Positions 4,784 through 34,318 of a stretch of 64,000 nucleotides of DNA are shown one piece after another. The stretch is from assembly GCF_038051925.1 (NCBI RefSeq), contig NZ_CP150634.1:4286300-4350299 (forward strand). Direction: 5' to 3'. The notes beneath the pieces were generated by a model. It did not search any database. It was given only the letters and a program-made list of their open reading frames with translations, and was not told the DNA's origin. Numbering within the stretch: position 1 is the first letter of the stretch; each line of letters starts with the position of its first letter. Source of the DNA: Methylotuvimicrobium sp. KM2 (lineage in GTDB: Bacteria; Pseudomonadota; Gammaproteobacteria; Methylococcales; Methylomonadaceae). A program made the position numbers and the translations under genes.

Positions 4784-6922
4784 TTACCGTTCGAGCACTA
4801 AATAGCGGCTAGCTTTCCCATGCGACGAAATACTTAAATATTTAATTGCACGGGTAGCTGCAACATAAAATAACGCTTTTTCGCTTTGATTCCTCAGAGT
4901 AGTTTCTGTTAAACCCTTTGTGACTGTTCCTAAATTTAGTGGAACGATGCCATCGTTGATAGCAACCATAAATACGGCTTTAAATTCCAAGCCTTTTACT
5001 CGGTGCATAGTAGCCAAACGAATTCCGGGTAGATTTCTGTTGTCTGGGGCTTGTCTGGATAATTTTCGGATTTCGATACCCATCGATTGAAGCTGCAATT
5101 GGAATTCATCTAGGAGGTGATTGGTTCTTGCAACCAGACAAATATCTTGTGACAGCATTCCGCTTGAAATCAACGACTCGATTTTTTCGCCAATCCATTT
5201 GGATTCATCGCTTATCGAACTGAAGTGATGTACATCAGGATAATCTCCGTGCATCAGGGAACGATAATCCATCAACGAATCCAGAGAGTCATCCATGTCA
5301 TCAATCGGAATCCCTTCTAATATCCGCGTCGCAAAGCGCCGAATTTCCTCGGTAGTCCGGTAATTGATTCTCAGTTTTTTACCTCTTCCACGGATATTGA
5401 TACCGCATTGACTTAAAGCAGCCTTTTTATGGTAAATCCGCTGGTGGCCATCGCCGACAATAAACAGATCGTCTTCATTTTCGGGTACTAAACGACGCAA
5501 TAACACCAGCATTTCAGGCCCGAAGTCTTGTCCTTCGTCCACCACAATTGAACGATAACGTTTGATATGGCTACCCGAGTCAAGCATGGAGATGATGTCA
5601 AAAGCGGCATCTTCGATAGTCGTCAACTTTCGTTGCGTCAATTGGATGCGCATTTCCTCAAACACAGGCCAACTATCAGCACGCTGCTTTCTGGTTAGCG
5701 GCACACCACGCCCAATGCGACTGGCGGTTAAATACGCATGCCTAGTGCGAATCGATTGCGGAAGAATCACGCGTTCCCATTCCTCCCGAAAAAAACTAGC
5801 AGTTAATCCTAAACTTGGGTTAATAAGTCCTTCAGCCAAAGACCAACATTGTTCATATTCGCTATCCTTGCCATTGGGATAAACAACACGTAAGTTGTAT
5901 TCCAAACGCTTTAGACAATTTACAACCCAGGCATCGATATGTTGCACATCAATTCGTTGAAATTCTTGAGTTGAGCAAATTTTCCGTAAATTCTCTTGAA
6001 TATCGACAGCTAGATTACTGGTAAACGTTGTAAATAGGATGCGTTCACTCGGACCAGTCTGTTGGCTAGCCAGCCATTTTGCACGGTGCATGGCGACGAC
6101 CGTTTTACCCGTACCGGCACCGCCGAGAACACGAACAGGACCTGACCAATGTCGCGCGATCAATCGACGCTGTGAAGGATGCAAAAACACCCGCCATCTC
6201 TCCAATGGCGCTTCCAGCATCTCTAATAACTCCATTTCATCGCCAACCACGTAAAAACGACGGCGAGATGCATCTTGATTGAGGGCTTCGGCAAAATCTT
6301 CGGTATTCACGTCTTTGGTCGCCGTCTTTGAGGCGTAATCGAGTAATACGTCGTCTAGCGGTGTGCCAGCTGCGAGTAAATAAAGCGCCTCAAACGCTTC
6401 AATCGGCAGCGTTTTTTCTATCGATTCCAAGTCTTCTACACAAGTCAGATCCTTGATTCGCGGTAAATCTTCAGCGGGGACGCCTAGACTCAACAACGTG
6501 TCGTCCGACAAATTAAATAACCGAGGTGTTGTGTTTTCGGCAGCTGGAACTTGACTGCGTTCAATTTCCGGTTGATCGCTTTGTACAATTTCGACCAACT
6601 GCAAAGTCCCCGTCTGCGGATGAATATGACAGCGATGGGAACGAGCCCAGTCATAAGCATCATCATGTTTGTCGACCCACAGCAAAATATAAACATTGCC
6701 TTGGGCAGGTTTCAGGATAATGCCTCGATAATCTTGGTCGATGCGAACTGAACGGAAATTTTGATCGCGCGCATCGTTAATTTTTTCGTAATTGATGCCG
6801 CTGGACATGGGGTTGTAGCGAAACTTCGCGACAAACTCCATCACCTTTTTTTGTTTTGCTTTTGGGATCTGGGCAAACGATTCCAGAAATCCGTCACCAA
6901 TAGCTATTTTCAAATTTTCCAT
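4784..6922 (-). CDS. UvrD/Rep-type helicase with RelE-like N-terminal domain
   Basis: A 712-residue fusion. Residues ~1-100 look like a RelE/ParE-fold module (FRSVRIDQDYRGIIL, then VYILLWVDKHDDAYDWA). From about residue 240 follows a superfamily-1 helicase: Walker A GGAGTGKTVVAMHRAKW, motif II VVDEGQDFGPEML, motif III/IV IVGDGHQRIY with INYRTTEEIRRF, and motif V/VI LATMHRVKGLEFKAVF with LFYVAATRA. It probably unwinds or translocates on DNA; whether the RelE-like part is an active RNase or a docking domain cannot be read from sequence. It starts 3 bp after the stop of the giant helicase, so the two are surely co-transcribed, and it is the last gene of the island row. RelE-UvrD fusions occur in other defence islands. 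Confidence 0.85.
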   Translation of the reverse strand: MENLKIAIGDGFLESFAQIPKAKQKKVMEFVAKFRYNPMSSGINYEKINDARDQNFRSVRIDQDYRGIILKPAQGNVYILLWVDKHDDAYDWARSHRCHIHPQTGTLQLVEIVQSDQPEIERSQVPAAENTTPRLFNLSDDTLLSLGVPAEDLPRIKDLTCVEDLESIEKTLPIEAFEALYLLAAGTPLDDVLLDYASKTATKDVNTEDFAEALNQDASRRRFYVVGDEMELLEMLEAPLERWRVFLHPSQRRLIARHWSGPVRVLGGAGTGKTVVAMHRAKWLASQQTGPSERILFTTFTSNLAVDIQENLRKICSTQEFQRIDVQHIDAWVVNCLKRLEYNLRVVYPNGKDSEYEQCWSLAEGLINPSLGLTASFFREEWERVILPQSIRTRHAYLTASRIGRGVPLTRKQRADSWPVFEEMRIQLTQRKLTTIEDAAFDIISMLDSGSHIKRYRSIVVDEGQDFGPEMLVLLRRLVPENEDDLFIVGDGHQRIYHKKAALSQCGINIRGRGKKLRINYRTTEEIRRFATRILEGIPIDDMDDSLDSLMDYRSLMHGDYPDVHHFSSISDESKWIGEKIESLISSGMLSQDICLVARTNHLLDEFQLQLQSMGIEIRKLSRQAPDNRNLPGIRLATMHRVKGLEFKAVFMVAINDGIVPLNLGTVTKGLTETTLRNQSEKALFYVAATRAIKYLSISSHGKASRYLVLER

Positions 6923-6925
6923 TCA

Positions 6926-9900
6926 TTACTCCTGCTTTGGCAGCAATTGCATCAATTCATCCAGCCAATCAGCTTGATGGACACTGATCAATTTCCAATT
7001 GGGTATTTCGGCAAATGTATCAGGCGTCTCCAGCATGATGGCTAGCATGGCATCCGGCCAAGCCAATTCTGCCGTTGCGACTACCTGACCGTTTGCGACA
7101 AGATCAAATCCAACTTCCGGACAGCTAATACCTGCATTTATCAGGGATTCCAACGCAAATCGATCAATTTCGCACAGCTCGAATATCTCGGTCCAAGGAT
7201 TGTCGGATGCTGCCGAGGATACCGATTGAATCTCGTGCGGTTTCGATGGCCATCCTTGCAACAAATTTTCATACACTTGTTCTAATACACCCCCTCGCGT
7301 TGCAACGGTAAAGCGCGGAGCAAATTGCAACACATTGACCGCATGCCAAAAGCCTCGCCAGATTTTTTCAAACACCTTGATTTGCTCGGCACCGGTTTCA
7401 TCCAGAACAACAGCGACAGACATTTCGGTTAAAAGTCGCTCTCGGGAGGTTAAACCCGCAACTGGCAAGAATACGGCTATATCGACCGGTGCCGCACTGG
7501 TTTCAAGTCCTTCTAACAATCCACCAAACGCGAGGGGCTCGTCGAGATTTTGCATCCAATGCCAAATGGTGGTCGGTATTAGTGCCTTCAGAGCGAACTG
7601 TGGCTCTTGCCAAATCGGGGCCTTTAATGAAGGCAAGCTTAGCCAGCTGATGGCGTTGCACAAAGAAGCTTGCTTTAGTCGTTCACGGTTTGACACAGGA
7701 TCTTTTAAATAATCCAGTAACAGCTTGAAAGGGCCTGATACCAAGCTACTTTCAAGATTGGCGTTCGATTGCCAACCAAAACGCTCTGCTAATTTGTCAT
7801 ATTGAGTAAGCATGGCCGGTTGGCGGTTCTTCAATAAATAGTCCGACATGACCGAGTTGGGTTGCTGGCCTATCTCAGGAATATCTTGCCATCCTAAACT
7901 CCAAACCCTTCGGCCAGATCGCATGACTGCCAAACGTTTACGAGTGTCATCGGTTTGAATGCCAAAATGGGGGCCAAAGCCATCCAGATACAGAGCCCAT
8001 TCCCCTAACTCTTTAAGGTCGCCTTCCCGAACTGGTCGTAACATAAAATCCGGAATGGTTTGTAGAGTCACGTTTTGGGTGGGGCCCAATTTGACTTGTG
8101 GCTCCAGTTCCCAAACGCGCGTATTTCCAGATGAGTCGCTGACGTTGATCCAGTAGCCGGGTTTGCCGTTCACGGTTTTTTTGGTCATATCCGTAAAACG
8201 AGCCAAGGCTGACACGAATAAGGCCTCCAAGGGACTACCCAGAGCGCTGTTTATGTCGATGTCACTCAATTTGGCAACCGATTGCAATTGACCCTGCAAA
8301 TCCAAAATTTGTTTGAGTAACGTTAAGGCAACTTTTCGCGAAATGGCCGACCTATTGCGGCTATCCCGATAAGCCAGAATACAGCGATAGCATCCGTCTT
8401 GATCAGAGTGTTCAGCACAGGAACAGCTTTCCAGTAAATCGTAAGCCTGTTGCAACAGCCCCATCAAATTCTCGGGTGTGCGCATCAATTCTTTCAGATA
8501 TCCCGTTCCCCCAGGTACGCGGTCATAAATCACCAAATACTGCCGAGTGGCGTGACCATCCGAAGCGGACTCAGACATTTCTGTAATTTCCAGATGCTGA
8601 ACATTACCCTTGAAATACTGGCGCAAACCCATATTCAGCGCAGCAACAAAAGACATTTTCCGCGTTTCCGACTGCGCGACATCCGCCAACGGCAGCAAGA
8701 TACGAATCGCTTCGGAATTCAGTTCGCGGTAAAGATATAAACTGGTTAACCAATCCTCATCAGTCGATTCAACCCCTGGTTTGGACAATGGGCAATCTAA
8801 TGTATGCGCGTATTGACCCTTGCGGAGCCGATGACGGCGAACCATGCCACAATGCCGACAAATCTCGAAGCCTTTACGCGCATCGCTTCTGCCGGCAACA
8901 TGAAAAGTCTCTGCCGTATCGCCTGGCTCACCAAAGTTGATTTCTCTGAAACGGGCATTGCGCAAATACTCAAAACCAAACGGTAATTCCTCGCTGGCCA
9001 AGCGATAGCCACCTTGCTGGGATTCAGGTGGCACATCAACCAATAATTGCCTTTGGTAAAACTTGGGCTCGCGTTGATCACTGTCATCGCCAATTCGATC
9101 GTTGCGAGAGTCTGCTCTGGCGTAAACCTGGCGTAATTTCAACAGCGTGCGTTTTTGTCCGGTGTCTGCCCATTGCCCATTACCGCAACGAGGGCAGACA
9201 CTATGCGGATCACCGCTTTCATCAATGTTTTCGTTGTAATGACAAGCAGGACATAGGCGCCAATTTTGCGGTTTGGATAGCCTTAAATCCACTTGCTCGA
9301 TATTGAGTTGATGTTCGGCGGCATAAAACCTGGCCTCCGGCACCAATTCCCCCAATGCGGCTTGCGCGGATCGTTGGAAGGAAAAGCTCAACGCTTCGTA
9401 GCGTTTGCCCTCATTGCCTTCATCGCGAACTTCTTTGCGGCGCAGAATCACGGAATTAAGCGTCACGCCTTCTTCAGGGAAGGCATAATTCGGCAACAAG
9501 CCCTCGTCGGTAAAAAAATTTAAGGTTAATCGCCGATTGATGCTGCCAATCAAAGCCAGCAATGCCTGTCGCTCGCTCTTGGAATCGGCCAATAATTGAT
9601 CGCGGGCTTCATCGGTCGGTTGGGCTTCTAATTGAGTGATACGCTTTTTGAGTTCATCGGCTCGGCTTCTAACCGACTGGCGAGTTTGCGACAACTCATT
9701 GAGTCTATTTAAAATTCGCCAACCCAATGTTCCTTCGGTTTTACTGCCCAGTAAAAATTGTTCGATGTGGTGAATACCATCGGCGTCCAAATCCGGAAAC
9801 AGTGCCAAAAAACGTTCGATGATTGCCAAGCCGTGATCATCGACGTAGTGCAGCAAATTATGCGGAAAGCCTTCCAACCTGCCTGATTCGACCGTATCCA

Positions 9901-12900
9901 GCACGGCTTGCAAAGTGCCGGGAATCGCGGCAGCATCGATACCGGTTGCCACCCAGCGGTCAAAGTAAAATGCAATGAGCTGTCTTTCCAAAACCGCCAT
10001 CGCCTTCAGAAAAACACCGGGTGGCGTGATTTGACCCGCCATCATCTCTTTTGGACTACTGTAAAAATACAGGTCGTGCTGATGTCCGGTCGCGATGGTT
10101 ACCGCCAATGCGTTACCATCACGGCGACCGGCCCGGCCAATTCGTTGCAAATAATTCGCTTGAGCAGGAGGCACCGAGCAAAGCAGGACCGTCGACAAAT
10201 CACCGATGTTGATCCCCATCTCCAGTGTTGGTGTGGCTGACAGCAGGTTGATATCCCAAGTATCGGCACCCTCGATAAATGAGGTTTCAATGGCATGGCG
10301 TTTCTGACCATCCAACAGCCCGGTATGCTCACTCGGCACCAAACGCCGCGGCCATGCACGATAATGTCCGGAGCGGGATGACATGGGCGCAGCCTGATAA
10401 TGACCGAAGCAACCTTGGCGCAGGCATTTCATACCAATCAGCCAATGCAATTGTTGATTCGGCGCCGATAACCGATGCTGGCAATCCTTACAGGCCACTT
10501 CCAGCACTTGTGTGGTAACTTGCCAATACGTTGGGATCAATCCCCACACGGTTTGTTGTCGTACAGACAGGGCTTGCACCCAACCCTCTTTTTCCAGAGC
10601 GTCTAACGTGATCGTAAACGCTTGTTGGTATTCAGCAGATACCAAAGGCTGATCGGCCGCCAAACATTTGTTAAACCAATCGCGATACCAGGCGCTTGGC
10701 TGCATCAAGTTGTCGAAGTTATTGGAAACCTGATCCATGCTGAGCATGGCGGGCGGGCGATTACTAAAACCATAGCCCGGCATAAAGGGAAGACGTGTGA
10801 GTAGAAACTCTTTCCCTCCCTCTCTGACGTAAGTTTCGAGCTCCTTGGTGTAGAAGGCGCCTTTTTGGCGGAGTCTCGTCAAAAATCCCAATAAAAAATA
10901 CTGCACATCAGAAACGCTGACTTCCGTTAGCATACCGAGTTCTTCACGAAGCCGGCGGGTTAAGCGTTCACCGCTGGCAACCAGCCGTTCTCCGTCGGGC
11001 AGCACGGTAGCCACCACCGAACGTTCAAGCGTTCTTCCGACTCGGCTACGCAAGCCAAATTCCGTCATGACTTCCCAGGACAATCGTTTTGCTACCAAAT
11101 TGACCACATCGCTACCCGGCGGGATTTTGCCTTGCGCTTTCAAGGCCTGGTAGCCTTGCAACCATTCCATATTCGGCGCAATGAAGGTGCCGACAAAAGC
11201 GGCTTCGCTGCCCGATTGTTGCAACCAGAAATTGGGAAACTCTTGCGCTAAACGCGGTAAGGATAAACCTTCACCTTGTCGCCGAATGAAGTGGGCTAAG
11301 GCATTGCGTAACGTCTGCGAATAGGTACGAGCGCCAAAAAAGCCCGCTCTATGCGCGGCATCTTGCACCGAGTCGGAAAAAGCAATCAGCTTGTAATCGT
11401 CGTTGAATGACGAACCCAACAATTCGCCAATCAATACACTGGAAAGACTAGCGGCCCTCGAGCCGATGATCGACAGCGATTCATGCCCGCTGCAACAAGG
11501 ACAATCGGCCGAAACGATGGTTCTATTGATGCCACCACGCTGAACCTGCTTACGAATCTCAGGCATCCAGACTGCGATCCGATGTCCCTGGCAACCGCTA
11601 CAAGTATCGCTGCCTTTCAAAGGGGATAACTGATGACAGCTCGTACACAGCCAGCGTTTTTCACCCTCTGGAGCCTTTCGTTCGGGTTCAAGCGGAAACA
11701 ACAACGAGGCATCCGGTTTTTGTCCAAACCAAGACTGATAAAAAGCTTGTAAGTCAGGCCTAATGCGCTGTTCGCCTTCCGCTACCACCGCCCCCCAAGT
11801 GACAGCATGACATTCGCGGCAATGCAGTAACGGCAGGTGCAAGGGATCAGCCAAATCGCGCAGATCGTCGGCATGGGTTAATTTAGATGGATAGGCGACA
11901 CTCGCTACCATGCGTCGCAATTCCCGTAACCAAAGTTGCACACGCACTTGTAAAAATGGGTCAACATCCTCTCGGGTTACAGAAGCCTGCAAGGACGATG
12001 TTTCTGGGTTTTTCCAACGCCTGGCCGCTGAAATCAAGGCGATCAAACTATCGATCAGAATTTCAGCCGCTGTGATGTCTGGCAAGCGTAAACGTTGCCG
12101 CCATAATTCAGCGAGTTCGCCAGCGTCACATAACACATGGGTTTGTCGCAGCAGTTCGTGAAAGGCGGTTAAGCGCAGCAATTGTTCACCCAACTGCACC
12201 GAAGCCTTGAGCCGATTGGCTTCATCCGGTGAATCTAACGCTAAAGTTTGACCTAACCAAAATTCCGCCGCCCGACGCAGATAAACCCCAGATTCCGATT
12301 CGCCAGGACGCAATTCCATCAGGGCTTCGACCGGCCAACGGGAAATCGGCTCAACACTGTCAGCGTAGCGGCCCAAATATTCATCCACCGATAAGCGATC
12401 TTCCAATACGATGCCATCGTCATCGAAAGCTGTGTCGAAAACCGCTTCTGCGTATTCGCGTAACGCAGTCACTGCAGAGGCATCACCAATAGTCGCCGAT
12501 GTGCCGACACAGGCCATTTCCTCGCCGATGCTTAACTTGTCGCGCAAGCGCCGAATCAAACACGCCAAATCCGTGCCTTGAGCGCCGTCGAAGGTATGCA
12601 ACTCGTCAACCACCAGATAACGCAATACGCCCGACGTGTTGAACTGCCAGAGCTTTTGATCCTGCGGACGCATCAACAAGAAATCCAGCATCTTGTAGTT
12701 GGTCAGCAAGATATCCGGCGGATTCTCGCGCAAGGTGTCGCGGTGTGAAATGACCTGTTCAGGTGTCATCGCACGATTATTCGAGCCATCGTCGCCGGTG
12801 AACAAACCCACGCTCAGTTTCGGATTGAGCTTGCTGCATTCCTTGGCAAACCGCCGCGCCTGATCGGTAGCCAGCGCATTCATCGGATAAATGATGATGG

Positions 12901-13291: not shown

Positions 13292-13296
13292 GCCGC

Positions 13297-13575: not shown

Positions 13576-13680
13576 TTGAGACTCCTTGAAATGTAAGAAA
13601 AAGTGGAATTGTGTATGCCGATAACAGTAGAACGGCAATCATTGTTAAGCGAAACATCCTGGCAAGAAGGCGAAATTTCG

Positions 13681-15366: not shown

Positions 15367-15384
15367 GGGGTTGCCTATCCGTTT

Positions 15385-15620: not shown

Positions 15621-15634
15621 AATCCCATGGCGCA

Positions 15635-21903: not shown

Positions 21904-21927
21904 GGTATTGCTTGTCCTTGAATGGGT

Positions 21928-22568: not shown

Positions 22569-22638
22569 AGCACTCTCCTCTGTCAACTCAAATGTACATC
22601 CTTAATATATACGTCAACATCCAGGATGACTAGTCATT

Positions 22639-25515
22639 TCAGGCAATCGTGCCGGTAAAGACCGCAGCAACCTGTATAAACGGCTCTTCTTCGGTAGTTT
22701 GAGTATTTTGTAACCAGTCCAGATGATCTTGAAAAACCCGCTCGATATGAGAACGCCTATCGTCGATGCGGTGCTTTTTGATGGCTTCGGGTTGAGCACT
22801 GTCACCGAAGTCGATTTCCAACTGTTCAACGTGGCGACGTTTTAAGGCGTTCATTTGATCCAATTGTGTAAGCAGGCGTTCGCTGAGTTTGGATTGTTTA
22901 TTAAGTCGGAGTTTTTGTAATGCCTTTTTTGCGGGTGGTATGGCCAAGGGCAGAAGCGCCTGTAATGATGCGGTGTCACCCACTGCGCCGCGATTGGCCA
23001 GTTTACCGGGTTGAAGTTGCAACTGTTCCAGGAATGCTTCGAGCGATTTGATGCCGAGGACGGTTTGATTGTTAAATTCAACCGCCAGCCAATCATGCAC
23101 CAGAATATGGCCGCGCTTATTGGGAAACCCGCCGTAGATCAAAACGAACTGTTGTTGTGCCGATAAGGTGTTGAGACGCAAAACCGGGGCTGTGTGCCGG
23201 CCAAATGCATTTAAGGCTCTGTCGGCCAACCATTCCATGACCGGATGTTGCTCCCAAAGATATTGAATGTCCGGCCAGGGGCTATCTTCTTCACGGCAGC
23301 GTTTCAGTTCGTCGTAAATGCGCTGTTTGTTGTTGGACAGAATAAAACGATCGTTATCGGGGCGGACTTCACTGGGCAGGTAGCGTAAGCGTTGCACCAG
23401 GTCGTTTGGTGCTGTGAGTCGCATTAAATCGCCTTCGATATCGGCTTGCAGATCGACACCGCTTTCACGCAGCCAGCGTAAGGCTTGTTCCGCATAGTGC
23501 AGATCCTGCTCGAACAAACGCGGGCTTTGTTTTAACACTTGCTCAAAGCTGTGACTGGGCGGTGTGTCGGGTGTGAAATGCGCCAATAGATCAGAGGATG
23601 TATCGGTGCCATTCAGCAAATCGGCGAAGATGTCTGAAATGTCGTCATCGTCTTTCTTGTCGCGTTCGATGGCTGCAGCGACGATGGCTTCTTCTTCCTC
23701 GGGGTTAAACTTGCCCATGAATTCGGAAGGGTCACCAATGTTCTTGCCGGCTTGTGCGTCTTTTTCGATCAGAATATCCAGGACGCGGGAGTCGCCTCGA
23801 ACCTTTGTATTGTCTGACTCGGTTAATAGGTAGCGAATTTGCGGCTGCCTTTGTTGACCGTAACGATCGATACGACCGTTGCGTTGCTGGAACACCATCA
23901 ACGACCAGGGAATATCAAAATGGATCATCCGATGCGAAAGGTGATGCAGGTTGATACCTTCCGATGCCACATCAGAGCACAGCAGCATGCGTACGGGGCT
24001 ATCCAGTTTGTTGAATTGCTCGACGGCATCCATCAAGTCTTTGTCGCGCATGTCCCCGCGCAGGACGGCGACTTGTTGAGATTTTAGGCCTAATTCATCG
24101 GGTAAGTGCTTGTGCAGAAACTCCAGGGTAATCAGACTTTCGGTGAAAATGACCAGTCTATCCTCGGCTTGTTTGGGACTCCAGCCCAAGCTGCTTGAAC
24201 CTTCTGGTTTTAGTAAGGTTACCAGGCGTTGGTATTTACTGAATTGAACTGGCTTGATGGCTTTAATGGCCAAGCGCAATCCCTCTAGCATACTGATGTC
24301 GGCCACAATTTCGTCACTCGATGTTCGGCTTTGCAAACGTTTCAGGCGATTTTCGATCGTGGACAAACAGGCTGCCGGGCTGGAGAACAAGGCTTTTTCG
24401 AGCACAGTACGAAATAACTGGCCGGCGCTTTTGCCATCCAGCGTATAAAATTTGGCGGCACAGAGTTGGTCATAAGCCGCCTCTTCGACAGGGCTTGCGG
24501 GTGTGCGAACGGTGTCGATTTCGCGTTCCGGAAAATTTTGCTTCAGTTGTTCGCGCACATCTTTTTTGAAGCGTCGGATCACCAAGCCTTTGTCGCGAAA
24601 ATCCTCTTGCGAATAGTCTTTAGGGTTGGCAATGGCTGTGGGGTCGAGCATGTTCATCAAGCTGGCAAAGCTGGTTGCCTTACCATCGTGCGGCGTCGCA
24701 GACAGCATAATCAGAGTGTCTGAGCGGGTAGCCAGCAGTTTGGCTAATTTGGCGCGTTGAGAATTGGCGTTACGTTCCGCGACATTATGAGCTTCGTCGA
24801 TAATGATGATGTCCCAATAGGCTTTTTCCAGGTGATGTCGGTATTCGATGTCCTGTTTAAGTGTATCGATCGAAATGATGGAGCGGTCGAAATAATGAAA
24901 TGGGTTGTGATTGGCGGGGATGCGATTCCGCACCCGTTGCAAGCCGACAGAATCCAGCCTGACCAAGGGAATGGAGAAGCGATTCCAAAATTCTTGTTGG
25001 AACTGGGCCAGCATGGATTTGACGGCCAATACCAGTATGCGTTTGCCACGCCCTCTAGCAATCAGTTCACTGACCAAGATACCTGCTTCTAATGTCTTAC
25101 CCAAACCGACCGAATCAGCGATCAAAATACGTTGTCGAGGCTGATTTAAAGCTTGGAGGGCGGGATCGAGCTGGAAAGACAGTTGGTCCATCGCCGCGCG
25201 TTGTGCGATGTGAATAAACTCGTCAGTCGGCGGTGTTTTGCGCAGTAAGGTATCTAGGTACAGCAAGCTGGCCCGAAAATTCGGTGTTAAATCGTCAACC
25301 AATTGAGTGGTTTCCGGATCGAGAATGCGAATTCCGGCACCGTGAGATTCTTGTTCAGTAAGAAACAGCGCTTCCTTGCCGCGAACGATTTCCGATAAGC
25401 CCTCGCAAGCCAGCAAGTAGCCGCCATCCGATGAATGATCGACGCGCTTGATGCGCCATTCGGCATCGCGGGCTTCGATGCGAAGGCCTGAAGCAAATTG
25501 TTGGTGAGTGGTCAC
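22639..25515 (-). CDS. SNF2-family helicase (DrmD-like)
   Basis: A 958-residue superfamily-2 translocase. Motif I ADSVGLGKTLEAGILVSEL lies near residue 135, motif II IIIDEAHNVAER near 240, motif III LSATPHDGKATSFA near 272, and motif VI FQQRNGRIDRYGQQRQPQ near 565. A ~350-residue C-terminal region with charged helices follows. This is the architecture of HepA/RapA-like SNF2 proteins and of DISARM DrmD. The start is GTG 25515. The 281-bp gap upstream, with a TATAAT box at 25565-25570, suggests that the DISARM-like half of the island can be transcribed on its own. It probably translocates on duplex DNA without strand separation. Confidence 0.88.
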   Translation of the reverse strand: MTTHQQFASGLRIEARDAEWRIKRVDHSSDGGYLLACEGLSEIVRGKEALFLTEQESHGAGIRILDPETTQLVDDLTPNFRASLLYLDTLLRKTPPTDEFIHIAQRAAMDQLSFQLDPALQALNQPRQRILIADSVGLGKTLEAGILVSELIARGRGKRILVLAVKSMLAQFQQEFWNRFSIPLVRLDSVGLQRVRNRIPANHNPFHYFDRSIISIDTLKQDIEYRHHLEKAYWDIIIIDEAHNVAERNANSQRAKLAKLLATRSDTLIMLSATPHDGKATSFASLMNMLDPTAIANPKDYSQEDFRDKGLVIRRFKKDVREQLKQNFPEREIDTVRTPASPVEEAAYDQLCAAKFYTLDGKSAGQLFRTVLEKALFSSPAACLSTIENRLKRLQSRTSSDEIVADISMLEGLRLAIKAIKPVQFSKYQRLVTLLKPEGSSSLGWSPKQAEDRLVIFTESLITLEFLHKHLPDELGLKSQQVAVLRGDMRDKDLMDAVEQFNKLDSPVRMLLCSDVASEGINLHHLSHRMIHFDIPWSLMVFQQRNGRIDRYGQQRQPQIRYLLTESDNTKVRGDSRVLDILIEKDAQAGKNIGDPSEFMGKFNPEEEEAIVAAAIERDKKDDDDISDIFADLLNGTDTSSDLLAHFTPDTPPSHSFEQVLKQSPRLFEQDLHYAEQALRWLRESGVDLQADIEGDLMRLTAPNDLVQRLRYLPSEVRPDNDRFILSNNKQRIYDELKRCREEDSPWPDIQYLWEQHPVMEWLADRALNAFGRHTAPVLRLNTLSAQQQFVLIYGGFPNKRGHILVHDWLAVEFNNQTVLGIKSLEAFLEQLQLQPGKLANRGAVGDTASLQALLPLAIPPAKKALQKLRLNKQSKLSERLLTQLDQMNALKRRHVEQLEIDFGDSAQPEAIKKHRIDDRRSHIERVFQDHLDWLQNTQTTEEEPFIQVAAVFTGTIA

Positions 25516-25564
25516 TGCGGAGCCGTCCCTGTTTGTTGTTATATTTATCTGTTAGAGGAAAGGG

Positions 25565-25586
25565 ATTATAGAACAAGGTGCTTGTT
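25565..25586 (-). promoter_or_regulatory. Candidate internal promoter and operator before the SNF2 gene
   Basis: On the minus strand TATAAT occurs at 25570-25565, about 50 bp before the GTG of the SNF2 gene. Immediately upstream is the palindrome AACAAG-CAC-CTTGTT (25572-25586) in the spacer region. The -35 is weak. An overlapping palindrome is a typical repressor site. Confidence 0.4.
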
Positions 25587-25796
25587 AGAACTAATCATAG
25601 CTACTAGGTAATCCTGTGAATTTGACTTTGCTGTACGGCTATTGTTGTTATGGGGTAATCAGTAAAGACTATGCTGATCCAGTTCAGTAATTTGCAATTA
25701 ATTAATGAGCCCGTCACCCTTATTTAAGCTCTGACAACGTTAGGTTAATGGTATTAGCTAACTTCTAATATAAAGTTTTTCCTCTTTTGTCGGATA

Positions 25797-28229
25797 TCAA
25801 TCTATATCTCCTAATGCATCGATGACATAAGCTTGGCCCAAATGTAACGGTGACGGAAGAGATGTTTTTTGTTTGTCAATCCAGGTTAAATTTTGGAAGC
25901 AAAGCTTGGAAATGGTCGTGACGAGTTCTTTTTCCTCAAAAGACCCTTTGTTTAATACAACGATTTCGGTCAATGTCTGAGCCTGGCGATCATTTTGTAA
26001 ATTGCGCGGTTGATCAGCAAATCGAGTCCTTCCCCTAGAATAATCTTTATCTAACACTGCGGAAGTTTGCGTACAGTAGTAGGCGCCATGGTAGTCTGAA
26101 TCAATATGACTAAATATTCCTTTTGAACCTCCCGGATTCAGCTCTCCCTTTTCATTTAGTGGACTATTGAAATCAATTGTGCCAGCTGGCCGAGGAAGAA
26201 TGCTGGAGTCGTTTCGAATACGAACAATGGATACTCGTTCGTCGCGCGAAATATCGGGCAAGCTACCAGTTCCTTCTGGCTGCGTATCATTCAGTTCGGG
26301 CCACAGCGTACCCGACGCACCAACGTCCATCAATAGAATGAATCTAGCCTCGGGGAAGCGGTTTACAAAAAGTTTCAAACCATGATTGATGAATTTACAA
26401 GCATCGGCTTTTTGTTTTGGACGATCTTGTGCGGATATATAACTTGCTATGCCTCTAGGTATGATTTCCCAGCTTCCCGTCGGGCTCAGCATCAACGATT
26501 GATGAGACCCCGCTTTACAAGCCGTTATGGCGATATGGAAATGATTGTTATCCTTACTTGACTTGCGAATGAAGTGACCGATGAACCAGCAGTCTTTGGA
26601 AGAATCTGGGCTTTCCTCGAAAGGAAGCAAATAACAGCCGGTCATCCTAAGTAAATCGTGGATTGCGCGTTTGGCACCATGGCAAACGCCTTTGCCATCC
26701 TGCTGGCGTAAAGTGCTTGCTCTGACAAACTGGCTGACATGACCATGCGTAGCTAATAACCGCCTAATCAACGGTTTGGGGTCGGCATAGTTTTTCGGAG
26801 TGTTTTCTAGTACGTCGTTTTCACACGTTTCGACAATAAATCCGGATAATTCATTTTGAGATAGTTTGATGCCCTCTATTACTTGTTGCATCCATGAAAT
26901 GATGTCTTCTTCCGGATTAGTGGATAACAAAAATTGTTGATTGGATTCTGGCGAAATGAACAAGATTTTCACAGGACCAGCCTGAAACCAATGACCATCT
27001 TCAACGTCGATTGGGACTTCCATTACGCCCATCAACAATTGTTGTAATTCATGTTGCAATCGTTTTCGAACGATATGAGATGAATATAAGCAAATGATTT
27101 GCAGATGATTACCACCGGCATCCTGAATGAACGAGTGCCATTGGGTTGTATCCGGCTTTTGGGTGGATAATTCTTTTACGGGTAATTGCTTTGGCGCTTC
27201 TTTTTGTAAACCGATTGGTTTGGCTTCATTCAAAGTTGAATGGGCGTGCGCTGCTACATAATGATGGAATGGTAAGCCGACACCTTTGCCGATGGGAAAA
27301 TTAACCGGTGTTTTCTCATAACGTGCTCTTACCGGTTGTAAGTAGGCAAGATCATAACCTTCCGGCTCAGAAATATCGGTATATCCGATGCGGTTGAGCA
27401 AGCGGACCGATAAATCGCTCCAAACCTTGAACCATTTTTCTTCTTTTTTGATTGAAGCAATTGAAATGTTTAATAAAGGTTTATCTTGGGAGACTTGAAA
27501 CCAGGCATGTTTAAGCGAATATTTTTTTGAATCTTTCCACTGCGTAGCCAAGCGACTGATACTGCTATTGAGATGAATGGCCGGTAATTCAAACCCCGGT
27601 ACCGTTATCAAACGTGGTGTTATCACATGCATGCCGTAACCTTGGACTTTCCCAGTCTGATTGCCCAGCGGCCTATCCCAACAAACTAAACTGGCCTGGC
27701 TGTCTAAAATGAACTTAAGCGGCGTATCGGTATCGATCCTTAGATCTTGCTGAACGAGACGTTCTGCTACACGCCACTTACTGGCCTCCCATACCCATCC
27801 CGGTGCTGTGGGGCATGCATTTTTTCTCGTTTGAATATTCGCGCCGATGTCCAAAGTACATTCTGTCAGTGCACCCTCTCTGACTAATGAACCTAAAACC
27901 GGAGTGTCACATTGCCGGTCAATTTCGTCTTCCCAGAAATCCAAGCAAGTTGCCAATATGTCCCTGGGCACTTGCTTGCTGGCGACTAAAAATAGCTGCT
28001 TCCCAGATTTAAACATATCCTGATAAGGGTCTAAACGAATGAAACATCCCAAATGCCAACGTAAGGCAGTCGCTAAAGATCCAAACGGTAGATACGATTT
28101 GTTTTTTCGAAATATTTCATTGAGTTCTTGCCAACGCCTTACAAAATCATTAGAAACTTGGTAGCCATAGACAGCACCGTAACTTTCCAAAGGCAAAATA
28201 AATGATGTCGTTTTTAGGTCAAAACGCAT
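25797..28229 (-). CDS. PIWI-RE family Argonaute-like protein
   Basis: An 810-residue protein with the layout of bacterial PIWI-RE proteins: a DUF3962-type N-terminal half (about 1-390), a MID-like region (LQIICLYSSHIVRKRLQHEL, near 400) and a C-terminal RNase H-fold PIWI domain. The end has the family pattern GIFSHIDSDYHGAYYCTQTS, an R-T-R-F stretch, then RQAQTLTEIVVLN, which supplies the conserved Arg and Glu. Earlier strands FILLMDVGASGTLWP and VSIVRIRNDS fit the RNase H core. No PAZ domain is evident. The two genes upstream, a DinG helicase and a PD-(D/E)xK protein, are the known partners of this family. It would bind guide or R-loop nucleic acid; catalytic competence is uncertain. Confidence 0.8.
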   Translation of the reverse strand: MRFDLKTTSFILPLESYGAVYGYQVSNDFVRRWQELNEIFRKNKSYLPFGSLATALRWHLGCFIRLDPYQDMFKSGKQLFLVASKQVPRDILATCLDFWEDEIDRQCDTPVLGSLVREGALTECTLDIGANIQTRKNACPTAPGWVWEASKWRVAERLVQQDLRIDTDTPLKFILDSQASLVCWDRPLGNQTGKVQGYGMHVITPRLITVPGFELPAIHLNSSISRLATQWKDSKKYSLKHAWFQVSQDKPLLNISIASIKKEEKWFKVWSDLSVRLLNRIGYTDISEPEGYDLAYLQPVRARYEKTPVNFPIGKGVGLPFHHYVAAHAHSTLNEAKPIGLQKEAPKQLPVKELSTQKPDTTQWHSFIQDAGGNHLQIICLYSSHIVRKRLQHELQQLLMGVMEVPIDVEDGHWFQAGPVKILFISPESNQQFLLSTNPEEDIISWMQQVIEGIKLSQNELSGFIVETCENDVLENTPKNYADPKPLIRRLLATHGHVSQFVRASTLRQQDGKGVCHGAKRAIHDLLRMTGCYLLPFEESPDSSKDCWFIGHFIRKSSKDNNHFHIAITACKAGSHQSLMLSPTGSWEIIPRGIASYISAQDRPKQKADACKFINHGLKLFVNRFPEARFILLMDVGASGTLWPELNDTQPEGTGSLPDISRDERVSIVRIRNDSSILPRPAGTIDFNSPLNEKGELNPGGSKGIFSHIDSDYHGAYYCTQTSAVLDKDYSRGRTRFADQPRNLQNDRQAQTLTEIVVLNKGSFEEKELVTTISKLCFQNLTWIDKQKTSLPSPLHLGQAYVIDALGDID

Positions 28230-28266
28230 GATCCGTCCTCATAGTAATTCCGTTAAAAATTGTCAA

Positions 28267-31200
28267 TCAGCGTTGAAAACTTTCCAATGCATGTATCAAT
28301 GCACCATGTATCCGTGTCATTTCTTCCATTTTTCCTTGTGTCTGCCAGGTCGATAAAGTCGTTTGGGCCAATTCCTGCCATCCAGCATTGGAATCAGCAA
28401 AAGCACTGTCTACAAGGAATACATCGATAGGAGTTTCGCCACGGCGGCCTCGTCCGGCGAGCTGCAACATTTCAACCAATACGTTACAGAAACATTCCAT
28501 ACGCAAATCTTCCGGTAGCGACTTAAATGGACCTATACGTTCATAAAAGCCATTAAGCCGAGCATAAGCATGACGCTGCTCCCATTCCAATGTTTCCAGT
28601 GGCTGCATTTCAGGTGTACAAACATTCAACAGTGAATAATTAACATGTGCCAAAGCTATTCCCGGTGAATCCAATGTTGGCACAGGTCTGACTAGAACAT
28701 AAATTGATGCGATTGCTGATTTGTCTGAACCTGGTTGAAGAATATTATGACCCCGACAAATACTTAAAAAAGGGGCAATCAATATATCGGCTTCACCATA
28801 GGCAAAATTGCTCAAATCTTCCCGGCTAATAGCCATACCGTTGTTGTTTTCCGACTTATCATCGGCATTCTGCAGGTAACGTACGCGCCTTAGTGCATGC
28901 TTTTCGCCCATGACTTGCGATAAAGCCTCTGCCGACCAACGAGCCTCTCGTCCACTGTTGGTCACTAAAAGCACCCGAGCTCTATTAGGTTGTTTTTGTT
29001 TAAGCTGCTCAATATCAAAAGATAAATATTGTTCCCATAAGCCTTTTGTCAGTAATCTTGTTTGTAGCTCTCTTTTGTTATGCTCGCCCATTCCCGATAT
29101 CCGGATCATTTCGTCCGAATCAGAAGATTTAATCAACCTTAATGCCAATTTCAAATCGGTGGTATCGTCTGGCTGATAGTAACGAACCGATCCTTTAACA
29201 TCGCTCGCTGAAGCTCCAGGAAAGTAGGCAGTTGCCGAAAGTCCTAAAACGATACGTGATTCACCGCCATAACCTCGACTTATTAAATTTCCTATTTCCG
29301 AGATGAACAAATGCGGGTCACCGCATAATGACTGTACATTTAATTGCCTATGTTGTTCTTTGCCCCCAAGATGAAATCCGTAATGCCTCCGTCCAAACGG
29401 CCCCATATAGGAAGTGCACCAAGGACGGTAACCAATGAGCTGGGCATAAAACTGAGCGGCCTCTTGTGATTCTTTTAAATCGGTTTTGCCAAAGCTATAG
29501 GTAACATCTTGTAACAAATCTTGTAAATGAAATAAAACTCGATGAAGAATCAGCAAGCTGGCGAGTTTATTACGTTTTTCGAGAGCAATTTTCGGGGCGA
29601 GTTTTTCTAATGATTGTATAACGCTAAATTTTCGCTCTGCTTCACTTGTTTCGGTTAGTCGGTTAGGCGTTAGCCATTGATTTAAAGATAGGTTTAGTTC
29701 ACCCCACAACGGTTCACTACTTTTACGATCAATGAGTTTGTCGATGTTTGAGTGTTCAGATTCAGGTAGGTATTTTTTAAATTTATGACTGATTTTTTGT
29801 TCCAAAGTAGCCGGTAAAACAGTTCCAATACCATAATTGGTCGGCCATTTAACTCGATGATTATTCAAGGCATCGCGTAATAACAAAGGTAACCGCTCTA
29901 ATTCCATTAGAGGGTCAATCACATCATAATTATTAACACTAGTGCCATTATCCGTCAGGTCGCGATGAACCTTATTGGCTATGGTCGGGCCTTTGTCTTT
30001 AGTCAAAGGAATCTGACCAACCTGCTGATCGATAAGTACCTGTTGCAGCTGATCGATTTCATCCACAATCACGAAATGAGAACGTTTGACCACTAGGTCA
30101 AAAAAAGTATTGATTCGAGTAGACTCTTCGTCTTGAGCAGGCAGATACAAGCGACCCGATAAAAAAGCGTGATGATTAATGATCAACAACTTGGCGCCTA
30201 AGGCTGCTTTTTGATGACGAAACTTGGGGCATTCCGTCAAGAAAGGGCAATCGAATCGGCTATGGCGACAAGGTTCTTCGCCGAATTGTATTTCGTCTCC
30301 TTCTTCGGCATAAGCCTGTAATGCGCAGTGATAGCCCACTGTTTCTAAAATGCTTGTAGCATCATTCGAATTGGGATCGCTTAAACTATTCCGCAACAAG
30401 TCAATAACAATGCGGCCTGATGAACGTGAAGAAAACAGCATACTAACGACGTTAGCCGGCATTTGTTTTTGTAGAATTTCCGAACACTGCCGATATTCTT
30501 GGATAACATCTTTAATGACCGGCAAAACAAGCGTTACGGTAAAGCCTTTTTTCACCAACAATGTCGCTAAGACTCTACTTAATACCGACTTTCCTCGACC
30601 GGTTGGCGCCACCAGCATCTGCAGCTCACCCGCTGTGAAAGCCAAGTCTTTGATTTTTTGGTTGGTCTTCCGACAGCGAAGTTCGTCCAAAAATATTTGC
30701 ATCCGTTTTTTGTAAAAATCCTGGCCGGTCAGTCGGCTAATATTCTCGGCTTGGGCCCTTAACTCAACATAGCTGATCGATAGATTTTTTAGGCTGGAAG
30801 CTTTTTGGATTTTAACTGGGTCGATAGTATCCGGAACCAGTTTGACGGGAACTTTGAATGATTTACCGGAAAAACTCTTTTTAACCCAGAATTGGTTTCC
30901 AGGTCGCTTTTTAAAAATAATGGGGTTGGCTATTTGAAGATTTTTTAGAACACTGATAATTTCATCGACACGTTGCTCAATATCTTTGCCGGGTAATACC
31001 CGATAGCATCGCTTTGAGTCTGATTCATTATGGCTAATAAATTCAAAAGGCGAATCCTCTGCTTTGATTCTTTCAGTCAGTAATTTGACTAGTCTTGTTT
31101 TATTTATTTCATTCAAATGCGAATATCGCAATAACCAAAGATATCGATTTTGCTCCAATTCGGATAAATGATCCCATTGTCGCCAGCGATGCAAACGACC

Positions 31201-31302
31201 ATGAGCTATTAAAACAAGATCACCAACTCTAACTTCCGGCTGGTGTTTGTTCCCCAATAACAGCAGTGCATCTAAGGCTAAGTGAAGTGGCTGTTCGTTC
31301 AA
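28267..31302 (-). CDS. DinG/XPD-type helicase of the PIWI-RE module
   Basis: A 1011-residue superfamily-2 helicase. Walker A LVAPTGRGKSVLSRVLA lies near residue 237, motif II FVIVDEIDQLQQVL near 415, and motif VI LQLAGRGRRGETPIDVF near 960. Four cysteines between motifs I and II (YHCAL, EPCRH, FDCPF, TECPK, about residues 325-365) sit where DinG and XPD carry a 4Fe-4S cluster. The first ~200 residues would be the PIWI-RE-associated Z-type domain. The start codon is TTG 31302, whose last bases form the TTGA overlap with the stop of the nuclease gene, so translation is coupled. A 5'-3' DNA or R-loop unwinding role is expected from DinG relatives. Confidence 0.85.
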   Translation of the reverse strand: MNEQPLHLALDALLLLGNKHQPEVRVGDLVLIAHGRLHRWRQWDHLSELEQNRYLWLLRYSHLNEINKTRLVKLLTERIKAEDSPFEFISHNESDSKRCYRVLPGKDIEQRVDEIISVLKNLQIANPIIFKKRPGNQFWVKKSFSGKSFKVPVKLVPDTIDPVKIQKASSLKNLSISYVELRAQAENISRLTGQDFYKKRMQIFLDELRCRKTNQKIKDLAFTAGELQMLVAPTGRGKSVLSRVLATLLVKKGFTVTLVLPVIKDVIQEYRQCSEILQKQMPANVVSMLFSSRSSGRIVIDLLRNSLSDPNSNDATSILETVGYHCALQAYAEEGDEIQFGEEPCRHSRFDCPFLTECPKFRHQKAALGAKLLIINHHAFLSGRLYLPAQDEESTRINTFFDLVVKRSHFVIVDEIDQLQQVLIDQQVGQIPLTKDKGPTIANKVHRDLTDNGTSVNNYDVIDPLMELERLPLLLRDALNNHRVKWPTNYGIGTVLPATLEQKISHKFKKYLPESEHSNIDKLIDRKSSEPLWGELNLSLNQWLTPNRLTETSEAERKFSVIQSLEKLAPKIALEKRNKLASLLILHRVLFHLQDLLQDVTYSFGKTDLKESQEAAQFYAQLIGYRPWCTSYMGPFGRRHYGFHLGGKEQHRQLNVQSLCGDPHLFISEIGNLISRGYGGESRIVLGLSATAYFPGASASDVKGSVRYYQPDDTTDLKLALRLIKSSDSDEMIRISGMGEHNKRELQTRLLTKGLWEQYLSFDIEQLKQKQPNRARVLLVTNSGREARWSAEALSQVMGEKHALRRVRYLQNADDKSENNNGMAISREDLSNFAYGEADILIAPFLSICRGHNILQPGSDKSAIASIYVLVRPVPTLDSPGIALAHVNYSLLNVCTPEMQPLETLEWEQRHAYARLNGFYERIGPFKSLPEDLRMECFCNVLVEMLQLAGRGRRGETPIDVFLVDSAFADSNAGWQELAQTTLSTWQTQGKMEEMTRIHGALIHALESFQR

Positions 31303-32390
31303 AACGGCGCCTCCTGTTTAGCAATGATTTGTTTCACCGTTTTTAGTAATTGACTCACGGACATAAACTGTAAATGTTTGAGGCTCGAACAGTTTTCTTG
31401 CAGAACTTTTACTTGATTTCGGCGATCATCCGGCACGACATAAATCAAGTTTTCGGTATTCAGGTCGTTATTGATCGCCTTTGCAAGAGCCAATACATTG
31501 ACCCAATCCTTAACGTCTATTTTTAGTTGCCTCTCACCGATCTGAACTAGCAAATCATATTGATCCAAATTGGGCCATAAAAGTACTCTTACGCCATCAA
31601 GCTGTTCCAGACGCGATTTCAAATCTAATTCAATTAAGCCAGGTAATAACGTGTATCGCCAAAAACCGTGTTTTAACCTCAGCATCGCATCAGCGGATTC
31701 GGGTGTAGGAGCCTTCAATTCTCCGAGTGGAGACAATCGGTCTTCGACCAAACTAAATTGGGCACCTCGTGAAAAGCATCTGCTTCCAGAGCATTGAACT
31801 CTATTTTCATGTCGTTTCATCGGCCAATAGCAAACGGGACAGGGGAAATAATGAGTTAAATTCTTATCAAGACAGGTACTTGGGATGTCTTCAAAAACCT
31901 GAGTCAGAGTTAAACCCGTTCGTAACAATATTTCCCTGGCTTTTTCTATAGATACAACGGGGGATGAAATAAGTTTTTCACGAAAACGGCTATAAAGTTG
32001 ATCACCATTCTTATGTGGACGTAGCCTGGACATGACTTGCAGCATTTGGTCTTGAACGAGTGTTGCTTCGGATTCGTTACCATGTTCCGCCATCCAATCC
32101 TGAGCAAAAGCTGTCACACCAAATCCGTCAACTAATCTTTCTTCTAAATCGAGAGGCAGCCATTCGCAAATCGGCTTTTTCATCAGCGCCAAAAACTCAG
32201 CTGGATTCTGAATCTGACTTTGTCCGTTATTAACACGCTGAATCCATGAAATGGCCAAACTCAATTGGTGCATGACCAACTCAATGTCTACAATCTCAGG
32301 ATCATTGGATATCGTGCACCATTTCAACACTGCATTGGCTGCATGGTTTAATGCAAGTTGACTTTCTATGTTAAGGCTATCCAAAGGCAC
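31299..32390 (-). CDS. Zinc-ribbon PD-(D/E)xK nuclease of the PIWI-RE module
   Basis: A 363-residue protein, first gene of the minus-strand row, with GTG start at 32390. A zinc ribbon lies near residues 182-203 (FPCPVCYWPM, then CSGSRC). The C-terminal third has a restriction-endonuclease core: WPNLDQYDLLVQIG supplies the first acidic residue and LKIDVKDW the D-x-K motif, near residues 275-295. This matches the Y-domain plus REase protein that accompanies DinG and PIWI-RE proteins. It overlaps the helicase gene by 4 bp. Its upstream region faces the WYL regulator across 163 bp. It probably supplies DNA cleavage when the PIWI-RE protein and helicase have engaged a target. Confidence 0.78.
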   Translation of the reverse strand: MPLDSLNIESQLALNHAANAVLKWCTISNDPEIVDIELVMHQLSLAISWIQRVNNGQSQIQNPAEFLALMKKPICEWLPLDLEERLVDGFGVTAFAQDWMAEHGNESEATLVQDQMLQVMSRLRPHKNGDQLYSRFREKLISSPVVSIEKAREILLRTGLTLTQVFEDIPSTCLDKNLTHYFPCPVCYWPMKRHENRVQCSGSRCFSRGAQFSLVEDRLSPLGELKAPTPESADAMLRLKHGFWRYTLLPGLIELDLKSRLEQLDGVRVLLWPNLDQYDLLVQIGERQLKIDVKDWVNVLALAKAINNDLNTENLIYVVPDDRRNQVKVLQENCSSLKHLQFMSVSQLLKTVKQIIAKQEAPF

Positions 32391-32484
32391 ACCTCATATC
32401 GTTAAAAAGCATCCCTTAAAAAATGTTAAAGACTAACGAATACCAATGTTTGGAACTATATAGCCATACCCTAACAATTTGCGT

Positions 32485-32499
32485 AAGGGTTAAACCCTT
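32485..32499. promoter_or_regulatory. Candidate operator for the WYL regulator
   Basis: The sequence AAGGGTT-A-AACCCTT is a perfect 7-bp-arm palindrome in the divergent intergenic region between the WYL gene and the nuclease gene. A further half-site, ACCCTAAC, lies at 32469-32476. Position and symmetry suit binding by the dimeric WYL protein and control of both directions. Confidence 0.5.
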
Positions 32500-32553
32500 C
32501 ATTGTTTTTGTCATTGATTCAATAACACGCTTTTTACATCGGGAAGCAAGGGA

Positions 32554-33624
32554 ATGAGCCAACAAAAATCGCAGGCAACACTGCAACGACGAAATCTGGT
32601 TTTGGAGAGTATTCGCAGACTCAGCGGCAAAAATTTGCGATGGGTGACTGGCAGAGAAATCGTTCAGGATTTGAAAGCCCAGGGTTACGCGGTAGAAATC
32701 CACAATATCCGTCGCGATTTAAAAGCCTTGCTACCGCTACACCCACAATTGGAAGTCAACGATAACAGCAAAGGCGACGGAAAGCCCATCAATGGCTTAC
32801 CCCATGGATACCGCTGGGTCGGAACGAATGTTGAACCGGCAACAGGTTTAACCCTGCCAGAAGCCTTGTCACTGGTGATGGTCGAGCGCTATTTGAGCCA
32901 GTCCTTACCGGTGTTACTGACTCAATCCTTGCATGATTTATTTCAGAAAGCACAACAAACTCTGGATTTACACAAGAAAAGCCAAGTGACTCATTGGCCC
33001 GAAAAAATCACTGTGATTCAACCCGCGCAAACACTGCTATCACCCTCGATCGATTCCACTGTGTTAACCATAGTACATGAATCGCTGCTCATGGAAAGAC
33101 AAATTCAGGTTTGCTATCAATCGATTTATCAAAAAATCGGCAAAGAAAAAAACTACCGATTACATCCCTTGGGTCTGATTCAACGCGGCCCCATCACGTA
33201 TCTCGTGGCAATGGCTAACGATTATGAAGATGCGTACATCTATGCATTGCATCGAATCATTTCAGCCCAATTGCTAGATGAGGCCAGTCGTCAGAATGAC
33301 GATTTCGACCTCAATGTCTACGCACAAAAACAAGGACATTTTGGTTCCGGAGAAACGATTTTCTTTAAGGCCAGAATCGTTGATCATCTTGCGGCCACCT
33401 TATCCGAAACACCGCTGCATAAATCCCAGGTAATCATGGAAGACGATAAGCCCGGCTATAAAATTCTGCAGGCGGAATTAGCAAATACCTGGCAATTACG
33501 TTGGTGGATATTGGGTGAAGGCGAACGTATTGAGGTGATTGAGCCAAAATCGCTACGTGATGATGTTGTCAATACAATATCCTTAACATTACAACAATAC
33601 GAGCAACCACTGATTAACCAGTAA
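32554..33624 (+). CDS. WYL-domain transcriptional regulator
   Basis: A 356-residue protein with an N-terminal winged helix-turn-helix (GREIVQDLKAQGY, then NIRRDLKALLPL, residues ~25-60), a linker helix (LTLPEALSLVMVERYLSQ), a WYL Sm-like core (YRLHPLGLIQRGPITYLVAM, near 205) and a C-terminal WCX-type domain. Such proteins (BrxR, CapW) repress phage-defence operons and are thought to sense nucleic-acid ligands through WYL. It is divergent from the whole island and is the only plus-strand gene there, so it is the likely master regulator. Start ATG 32554 follows AAGGGA at close spacing. A small hairpin (33677-33694) lies after the stop but has no T-run. Confidence 0.88.
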   Translation: MSQQKSQATLQRRNLVLESIRRLSGKNLRWVTGREIVQDLKAQGYAVEIHNIRRDLKALLPLHPQLEVNDNSKGDGKPINGLPHGYRWVGTNVEPATGLTLPEALSLVMVERYLSQSLPVLLTQSLHDLFQKAQQTLDLHKKSQVTHWPEKITVIQPAQTLLSPSIDSTVLTIVHESLLMERQIQVCYQSIYQKIGKEKNYRLHPLGLIQRGPITYLVAMANDYEDAYIYALHRIISAQLLDEASRQNDDFDLNVYAQKQGHFGSGETIFFKARIVDHLAATLSETPLHKSQVIMEDDKPGYKILQAELANTWQLRWWILGEGERIEVIEPKSLRDDVVNTISLTLQQYEQPLINQ

Positions 33625-33802
33625 CTCAGCTATCGTGCTAGTAGAATGCATAACTCCCGGAATGGTTGAGCGAAAACTTGTCTCAATAGACAAGAAGTTT
33701 AATCGAGCTGTTGGTTTCTGACGTTGAGCCATCGTTTGATGATTCGTAGGGTCTCGGTATTCAGGTATGCTATGCGTTGCTTGTTGCCTTTGCCGACTTG
33801 AA

Positions 33803-34308: not shown

Positions 34309-34318
34309 TTGATTTGGA

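Follow-up and report, generated by a model that had tools for sequence, protein, structure and literature searches.

Do defence genes that lie in one island and, with a single exception, on one strand act as one immune machine, or are they separate systems that came to be neighbours? This question is raised by a stretch of 64,000 nucleotides from Methylotuvimicrobium sp. KM2 (contig NZ_CP150634.1, positions 4,286,300 to 4,350,299; hereafter, the window), where a three-gene pPIWI-RE module is adjacent to a set of genes encoding helicases and an adenine methylase. An earlier reading of this DNA (the original prediction) described a composite of a PIWI-RE module and a DISARM-like set and suggested that they form a single system. 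The answer that appears most probable here is a different one: a single, horizontally acquired defence island of 30 kb which contains (i) a complete pPIWI-RE triad; (ii) a complete ARMADA type II system, mechanistically independent of the former; and (iii) passengers, the two systems being layered and not parts of one obligate machine.

Two complete defence systems

The pPIWI-RE half consists of three genes:

31299..32390, minus strand: PprRE, the pPIWI-RE restriction endonuclease (PF18154, pPIWI_RE_REase, 3.7e-22; PD-(D/E)xK motif intact, D...DVK, by alignment)
28267..31302, minus strand: PprDinG helicase (PDLC02422, 5e-110; Walker A APTGRGKS and four conserved Cys, by alignment)
25797..28229, minus strand: PprPIWI (PprPIWI profile, 1e-86; PF13111, PF18157 and PF13032)

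The nuclease, DinG helicase and PIWI-RE protein named in the original prediction are, as judged by profile matches and motifs, present and intact. Their order (PprRE, PprDinG, PprPIWI) and strand are the canonical ones of the three-gene pPIWI-RE system (Burroughs et al., 2013, PMC3702460), from which the window triad differs in being a deep branch, in having Arg for the first catalytic Asp of PsPIWI-RE, and in adjoining a methylase system.

The PsPIWI-RE of P. stutzeri cuts DNA under RNA guidance and requires both D525 and D610 (PMC10991935). When its numbering is transferred via a Stutzerimonas homologue with Asp at both positions, D610 is found to be kept in the window protein as D635, and D525 corresponds by alignment to R555. 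In any case, the D525/D610 pair is a feature of the characterised member and not of the whole family. Since the actinobacterial PIWI members compared also have Arg at the D525 column, R555 would weaken slicer activity but not family membership.

A survey of 84,980 species genomes (all collections hold one genome per species), carried out with a DinG alignment, two peptide patterns and flanks of 10 kb, yielded 79 triads besides that of the window. All 79 have a DinG that is 24-32% identical to the window DinG over the best segment, and the window triad is, on sequence comparison (DinG identity of 25-27% to any triad found), a deep branch of pPIWI-RE. No close relative of the window PIWI protein was found outside its own genome (151 relatives; 301 genomes of the order), and PF13032 gave two other matches across 398 genomes of the phylum, one in a full triad with no ARMADA nearby and the other weak. 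No pPIWI was found in the viral contigs searched. As for gene content, several actinobacterial triads (among L032, L049, L084, L071 and L019) have a fourth gene upstream of PprRE, called PprPDDEXK in PADLOC, and another group has a helix-turn-helix (HTH) gene at that place; the window triad has neither.

The second half comprises four genes, whose identities refer to the ARMADA II locus of an E. coli plasmid (L092):

22639..25515, minus strand: ArmA, SNF2/RapA (BrxHII-like) helicase (54% full-length identity; K140/D240 kept)
16957..21903, minus strand: ArmB, PglX/YeeA-like adenine methylase (54% full-length identity; G607 and N980 of NPPW kept)
6926..13291, minus strand: ArmC, YprA/DruE-like helicase with DUF1998 and a Vsr-like C-terminal nuclease (41% full-length identity; K109/D229 kept)
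4784..6922, minus strand: ArmD, RelE-like N-terminus fused to a UvrD/GajB-like helicase (49% full-length identity; K273/D462 kept)

On these homologies, the set is a complete ARMADA type II, ArmA-B-C-D, with the gene order SNF2, methylase, YprA and UvrD described in the main text of Bell et al. (2025, PMC12458937). Despite the embedded genes, the order and single strand are those of L092, and every residue mutated in the E. coli work is kept by alignment. The identity of ArmD extends over the RelE-like N-terminus, and ArmC has MZB and helicase domains as well as a Vsr-like motif near residue 1769 which aligns with E. coli ArmC. Likeness to the published type II thus covers order, full-length homology (41-54%), tested residues, the RelE-UvrD architecture of ArmD and the Vsr-like end of ArmC. 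The differences are the VapBC pair between ArmA and ArmB, the genes for a 440-aa protein (U440), a GmrSD-type enzyme and an AbrB-like protein between ArmB and ArmC, and the adjoining pPIWI-RE; the main text of PMC12458937 makes no mention of pPIWI-RE next to ARMADA II. According to published work, ARMADA protection is non-abortive and requires all four genes, and a phage-defence phenotype would be expected of the window system as well. Full-length, multi-domain profile matches of this kind, taken as a set over both halves, are no product of chance.

The original prediction was right about the SNF2 helicase, the adenine methylase and the DUF1998 helicase, which DISARM class 1 also has (with a PglX-like methylase), but the fourth core gene is the UvrD helicase ArmD (4784-6922), and the DISARM-like label is here corrected to ARMADA II. 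ArmA matches the SNF2/DrmD-like profile at 1e-99, ArmB the IIG/DrmMI profiles and PF07669, and ArmC a DruE-like helicase with MZB/DUF1998. DISARM membership was rejected because the counterparts of DrmA and DrmB, helicase and DUF1998, are fused in one protein (ArmC, 2121 aa) and because the DrmD score (335 bits) lies well below the curated cutoff (610); moreover, no DrmC nuclease of the phospholipase D (PLD) type is confirmed and an ArmD-type UvrD is added. Druantia III was likewise set aside: profile scans of the island found no DruH-like gene, and the similarity of ArmC to DruE3 covers only 225 aa.

A single insertion at tRNA-His

Both systems lie within one block, bounded as follows:

4285..34308, no strand: whole strain-specific insertion (30.0 kb) between an ion-channel gene and tRNA-His; homology to a genome of the same genus (G003) breaks and resumes at its ends
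34319..34394, minus strand: tRNA-His, flank of the insertion (ARAGORN); the site is empty in relatives
33842..34310, plus strand: decayed tyrosine integrase which ends at the tRNA-His 3' end (PF00589, 8.8e-9 on 33842-34030, with the match stopping thereafter)

The block is an insertion, because homology to G003 stops at 4284 and restarts at 34309; the ion-channel gene and tRNA-His are only 0.27 kb apart in that genome. The two flanks lie ~0.27-0.35 kb apart in four relatives (G003 and three more), and a fifth relative is a fragmented assembly with the flanks on separate contigs, where the site is not directly visible. Direct repeats of tRNA-His, as expected of attachment (att) sites, were sought at the left end of the island and none was found. 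A tRNA-linked, multi-system island with ARMADA II and with WYL and DUF262 genes nearby recalls the Zorya II-Druantia III-ARMADA II islands of E. coli; the partner in the window is pPIWI-RE, not Zorya or Druantia.

Composition is not uniform along the island. The G+C content at third codon positions (GC3) is 0.375-0.41 in the triad, 0.53-0.55 in ArmA-C and 0.38-0.42 in U440 and GmrSD, and these differences suggest that the island was built up stepwise. All the large open reading frames (ORFs) at 4784-33624 are intact.

One system or two

The regulator and its surroundings are the first place where a link between the halves could be sought:

32554..33624, plus strand: transcriptional regulator of the WYL/WCX type, divergently oriented relative to the triad (PF13280, 8e-10; PF25583, 2e-10)
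32485..32499, no strand: 15-nt palindrome AAGGGTTAAACCCTT between the WYL gene and PprRE; sole exact copy in the window, a candidate operator

The original prediction had placed all genes in a same-strand row behind one WYL regulator, with coupled starts. All the other genes do share the minus strand, but the WYL gene itself is divergent. Coupling is found within each half (4-bp overlap of PprRE and PprDinG; TAATG junction of ArmB and U440; 3-5 bp between the AbrB-like gene, ArmC and ArmD), but between the halves PprPIWI and ArmA are 281 bp apart. Upstream of ArmA no copy of AAGGGTTAAACCCTT was found with up to three mismatches allowed, and a WYL operator shared with ArmA was rejected on that ground. 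WYL control of ARMADA in general is plausible, since WYL genes directly precede ArmA in three alphaproteobacterial plasmids.

How often do the halves occur apart? About 74 of the 79 triads lack an ARMADA at a distance of up to 10 kb. The five with ARMADA-type sets nearby are those of S. iranensis, A. terrae, A. litoris, A. roseirufa and Actinomadura sp. NBRC 104425, and a few others have a single SNF2- or YprA-like match in the vicinity; ARMADA was sought by tblastn with the window proteins, a search that may miss divergent sets. After clustering at 85% DinG identity, ARMADA linkage is found in 4 of 41 groups. In S. iranensis, ARMADA II is followed by the triad, and relatives of that triad (DinG 90-93% identical) lack ARMADA in the flank that was read. 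Nor is there a triad in the flanks read, short in some cases, of any of 14 ARMADA II loci that were located without the use of PIWI. No fixed-order co-occurrence across genomes was found either: in each independent case the two systems are ordered and oriented differently. In the strain NBRC 104425 (L117/L118), two SNF2/PglX-like pairs lie near the triad, and no YprA helicase was detected.

The genus Actinomadura shows the same separability. Among 65 genomes, the triad is present in 10, ARMADA type I in 15 (one or two fragmentary) and both in five; hence, 5 of the 10 genomes with a triad have no ARMADA I, and 10 of the 15 with ARMADA I have no triad. In some of these type I loci (A. terrae, L115/L116; G1052, L147; G1081, L149) a divergent ArmD-like RelE-UvrD gene is present, though type I has been described without ArmD.

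These counts bear on the most integrated of the possible readings, namely, a single composite system in which methylation by ArmB marks self, a guided pPIWI-RE recognises or cuts unmarked DNA, and the ARMADA helicases supply the substrate. Such a reading can appeal to the layout (one island, one strand, one WYL gene) and to the four or more independent arrangements in which the pair is found. It must be considered very improbable: each half is complete and often occurs by itself, the pair is arranged differently in every case, the gap of 281 bp and the unlike GC3 separate the halves, and ArmA is not preceded by a second copy of the palindrome found beside the WYL gene. Furthermore, E. coli ARMADA II protects with just its own four genes (PMC12458937). 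Of the joint presence once proposed, it stands that both modules are complete in one island and that their pairing elsewhere is commoner than random placement predicts; a single system with ARMADA methylation marking self for PIWI-RE finds no support, given how widely the halves occur without each other.

Some points nonetheless weigh against two independent systems: (i) the layout, on one strand behind one WYL gene and confined to a single island, is also compatible with a single regulon or a single system; (ii) in Actinomadura, five genomes with both were observed when 2.3 were expected (Fisher p = 0.043, with kinship ignored); and (iii) the closest relatives of the window triad, possibly all linked to ARMADA, may be missing from the collections, since that triad is a deep branch.

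Recurrent juxtaposition

Pairs of this kind were found in two phyla and in four or more independent arrangements; to judge by the loci compared, pPIWI-RE appears to have arrived inside or next to ARMADA loci on several occasions. Three of the five Actinomadura genomes with both systems (two of them independent) have them within 10 kb, when ~0.01 such cases would be expected from random placement in 9-Mb genomes; defence genes, it must be said, cluster in general. In A. terrae and A. litoris the entire triad sits precisely at the ArmD|ArmC junction, and homology picks up again on either side of it; in G1052 and G1081 ArmD and ArmC are directly divergent with no triad between them (the junction is ~0.3 kb in the former and holds 2.4 kb of other sequence in the latter). 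Therefore, the triad behaves, as far as these alignments indicate, like a cassette able to enter ARMADA loci.

This recurrence could reflect cooperation: the two would be separate systems selected to stay together, one of them making DNA intermediates (single-stranded DNA, R-loops, ends) used by the other. The exact ArmD|ArmC insertion kept in two Actinomadura species, the other independent juxtapositions and the proximity within 10 kb speak in its favour, as do published precedents of synergy. According to PMC12458937, ARMADA II and Druantia III synergise and each also works alone; DruE, which is related to ArmC, loads onto 3' single-stranded DNA, and the DNA intermediates that Druantia III shares with Zorya II underlie the synergy of those two (PMC13192584). 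On the other side, the close relatives of the S. iranensis triad lack ARMADA, and other defence genes flank triads about equally often: RmrA-like profiles match 5 of 77 scanned neighbour proteins, to be set beside the 4 of 41 groups for ARMADA. Because of this, it is not evident that triads have a special preference for ARMADA, or that ARMADA is enriched beside them relative to other defence genes, and the clustering of defence genes in general would explain most of the juxtaposition. Cooperation is, hence, a possible but rather unlikely refinement of the preferred reading of two independent systems, with which its probability overlaps.

Passengers and putative accessory slots

Between the ARMADA genes, the following features are embedded:

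22341..22568, minus strand: VapB-like antitoxin, assigned by eye to the ORF that immediately precedes VapC
21928..22344, minus strand: VapC PIN-domain toxin, between ArmA and ArmB (NF047863, 3e-49, above cutoff)
15635..16957, minus strand: U440, 440-aa protein whose start overlaps the ArmB stop (TAATG junction)
15385..15635, minus strand: remnant of a small ORF, interrupted by a frameshift and resembling DUF2442 by eye
13681..15366, minus strand: GmrSD-type type IV restriction enzyme, DUF262/DUF1524, HEC-06 in PADLOC (PF03235, 3e-37; PF07510, 5e-14; PDLC04154, 1e-210)
13297..13638, minus strand: orphan AbrB/MraZ-like small protein (PF02381, weak, 0.003)

VapBC, GmrSD, the frameshifted ORF and the AbrB/MraZ-like gene were absent from the original prediction. 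The last of these lies just before the ArmC start and has no toxin partner. U440 (15635-16957) had been taken for a PLD-fold protein, a call that is left unproven because the protein has no Pfam, PADLOC or PDB-profile match and no HxK(x4)D motif, and because its single-sequence AlphaFold model is uninformative (predicted local distance difference test, pLDDT, 36). Scans of viral contigs for relatives were empty, and distant homologues are present on two plasmids. One of them, from Acinetobacter towneri, carries the homologue (L091:19992-21248) between pglX and pglZ of a BREX type 1 operon, which suggests, by analogy, that U440 may be a partner of PglX-type methylases. The window resembles that operon in having U440 directly after a PglX-type methylase, and differs from it in lacking the BREX core genes. 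In the genome G169, a relative of the C-terminal half of U440 (L159:9849-10496) adjoins an ORF with weak SNF2/ArmA similarity.

The place occupied by U440 and GmrSD is filled differently elsewhere. At the ArmB|ArmC junction there are (i) HEPN and ParA/AAA ATPase genes in G931; (ii) a 202-aa protein with a weak PEGA match in G833; (iii) a MoxR-like gene in Nostoc; and (iv) an IrrE/M78-like gene in Haematobacter. An FRG-domain gene follows ArmB in G793, where the contig stops before ArmC, and some other ARMADA II loci have no insert. The junction reads, on these comparisons, as an accessory slot, on which no statement was found in the main-text sections read of Bell et al. (PMC12458937). These accessory genes take up one and the same position after ArmB in ARMADA II loci that are otherwise collinear (L097, L101, L102, L128 and L129).

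Another reading is that unrelated defence modules simply accumulated at one tRNA-His site, with no functional or regulatory relation among them. The mosaic composition, the VapBC and orphan AbrB passengers, the decayed integrase and the frequency of accessory slots are consistent with pure hitchhiking; the intact, co-oriented large ORFs and the recurrence of the pairing in two phyla speak against it. With a chance only a little short of even, it is the second refinement of the reading as two independent systems and, like cooperation, overlaps with it in probability.

A probable layered defence

From gene content and homology, we infer the following steps for the two independent systems. In the first layer, the PIWI protein would bind short guides, PprDinG would open R-loops or duplexes, and PprRE would do the cutting, the latter being favoured because the window PIWI protein lacks one of the two catalytic Asp (R555). 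In the second layer, ArmB would probably methylate host adenines, and the ArmA, ArmC and ArmD motors, together with the Vsr nuclease of ArmC, would act on phage DNA that is unmarked or replicating. Phage DNA with modified bases would be the target of the embedded GmrSD. The layers would be complementary, perhaps synergistic via shared DNA intermediates, and cooperation between the triad and ARMADA in this island is, by analogy, possible.

In general terms, pPIWI-RE is best read as one of several plug-in modules collected by ARMADA loci, others being Zorya, Druantia, GmrSD, HEPN and FRG. A bolder view, for which the odds are poor, would make ARMADA a hub with accessory slots and pPIWI-RE a functional plug-in whose guided cleavage or R-loop opening makes or uses the intermediates of the ARMADA helicases, so that four or more independent lineages would have a physical link between guide- and methylation-based immunity. 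In any case, the island links two poorly understood defence families. The ArmB|ArmC and ArmD|ArmC junctions are places to seek new defence genes by embedding, and A. terrae and A. litoris, set against G1052 and G1081, provide natural pairs with and without the triad for the study of cooperation between guide- and methylation-based immunity.

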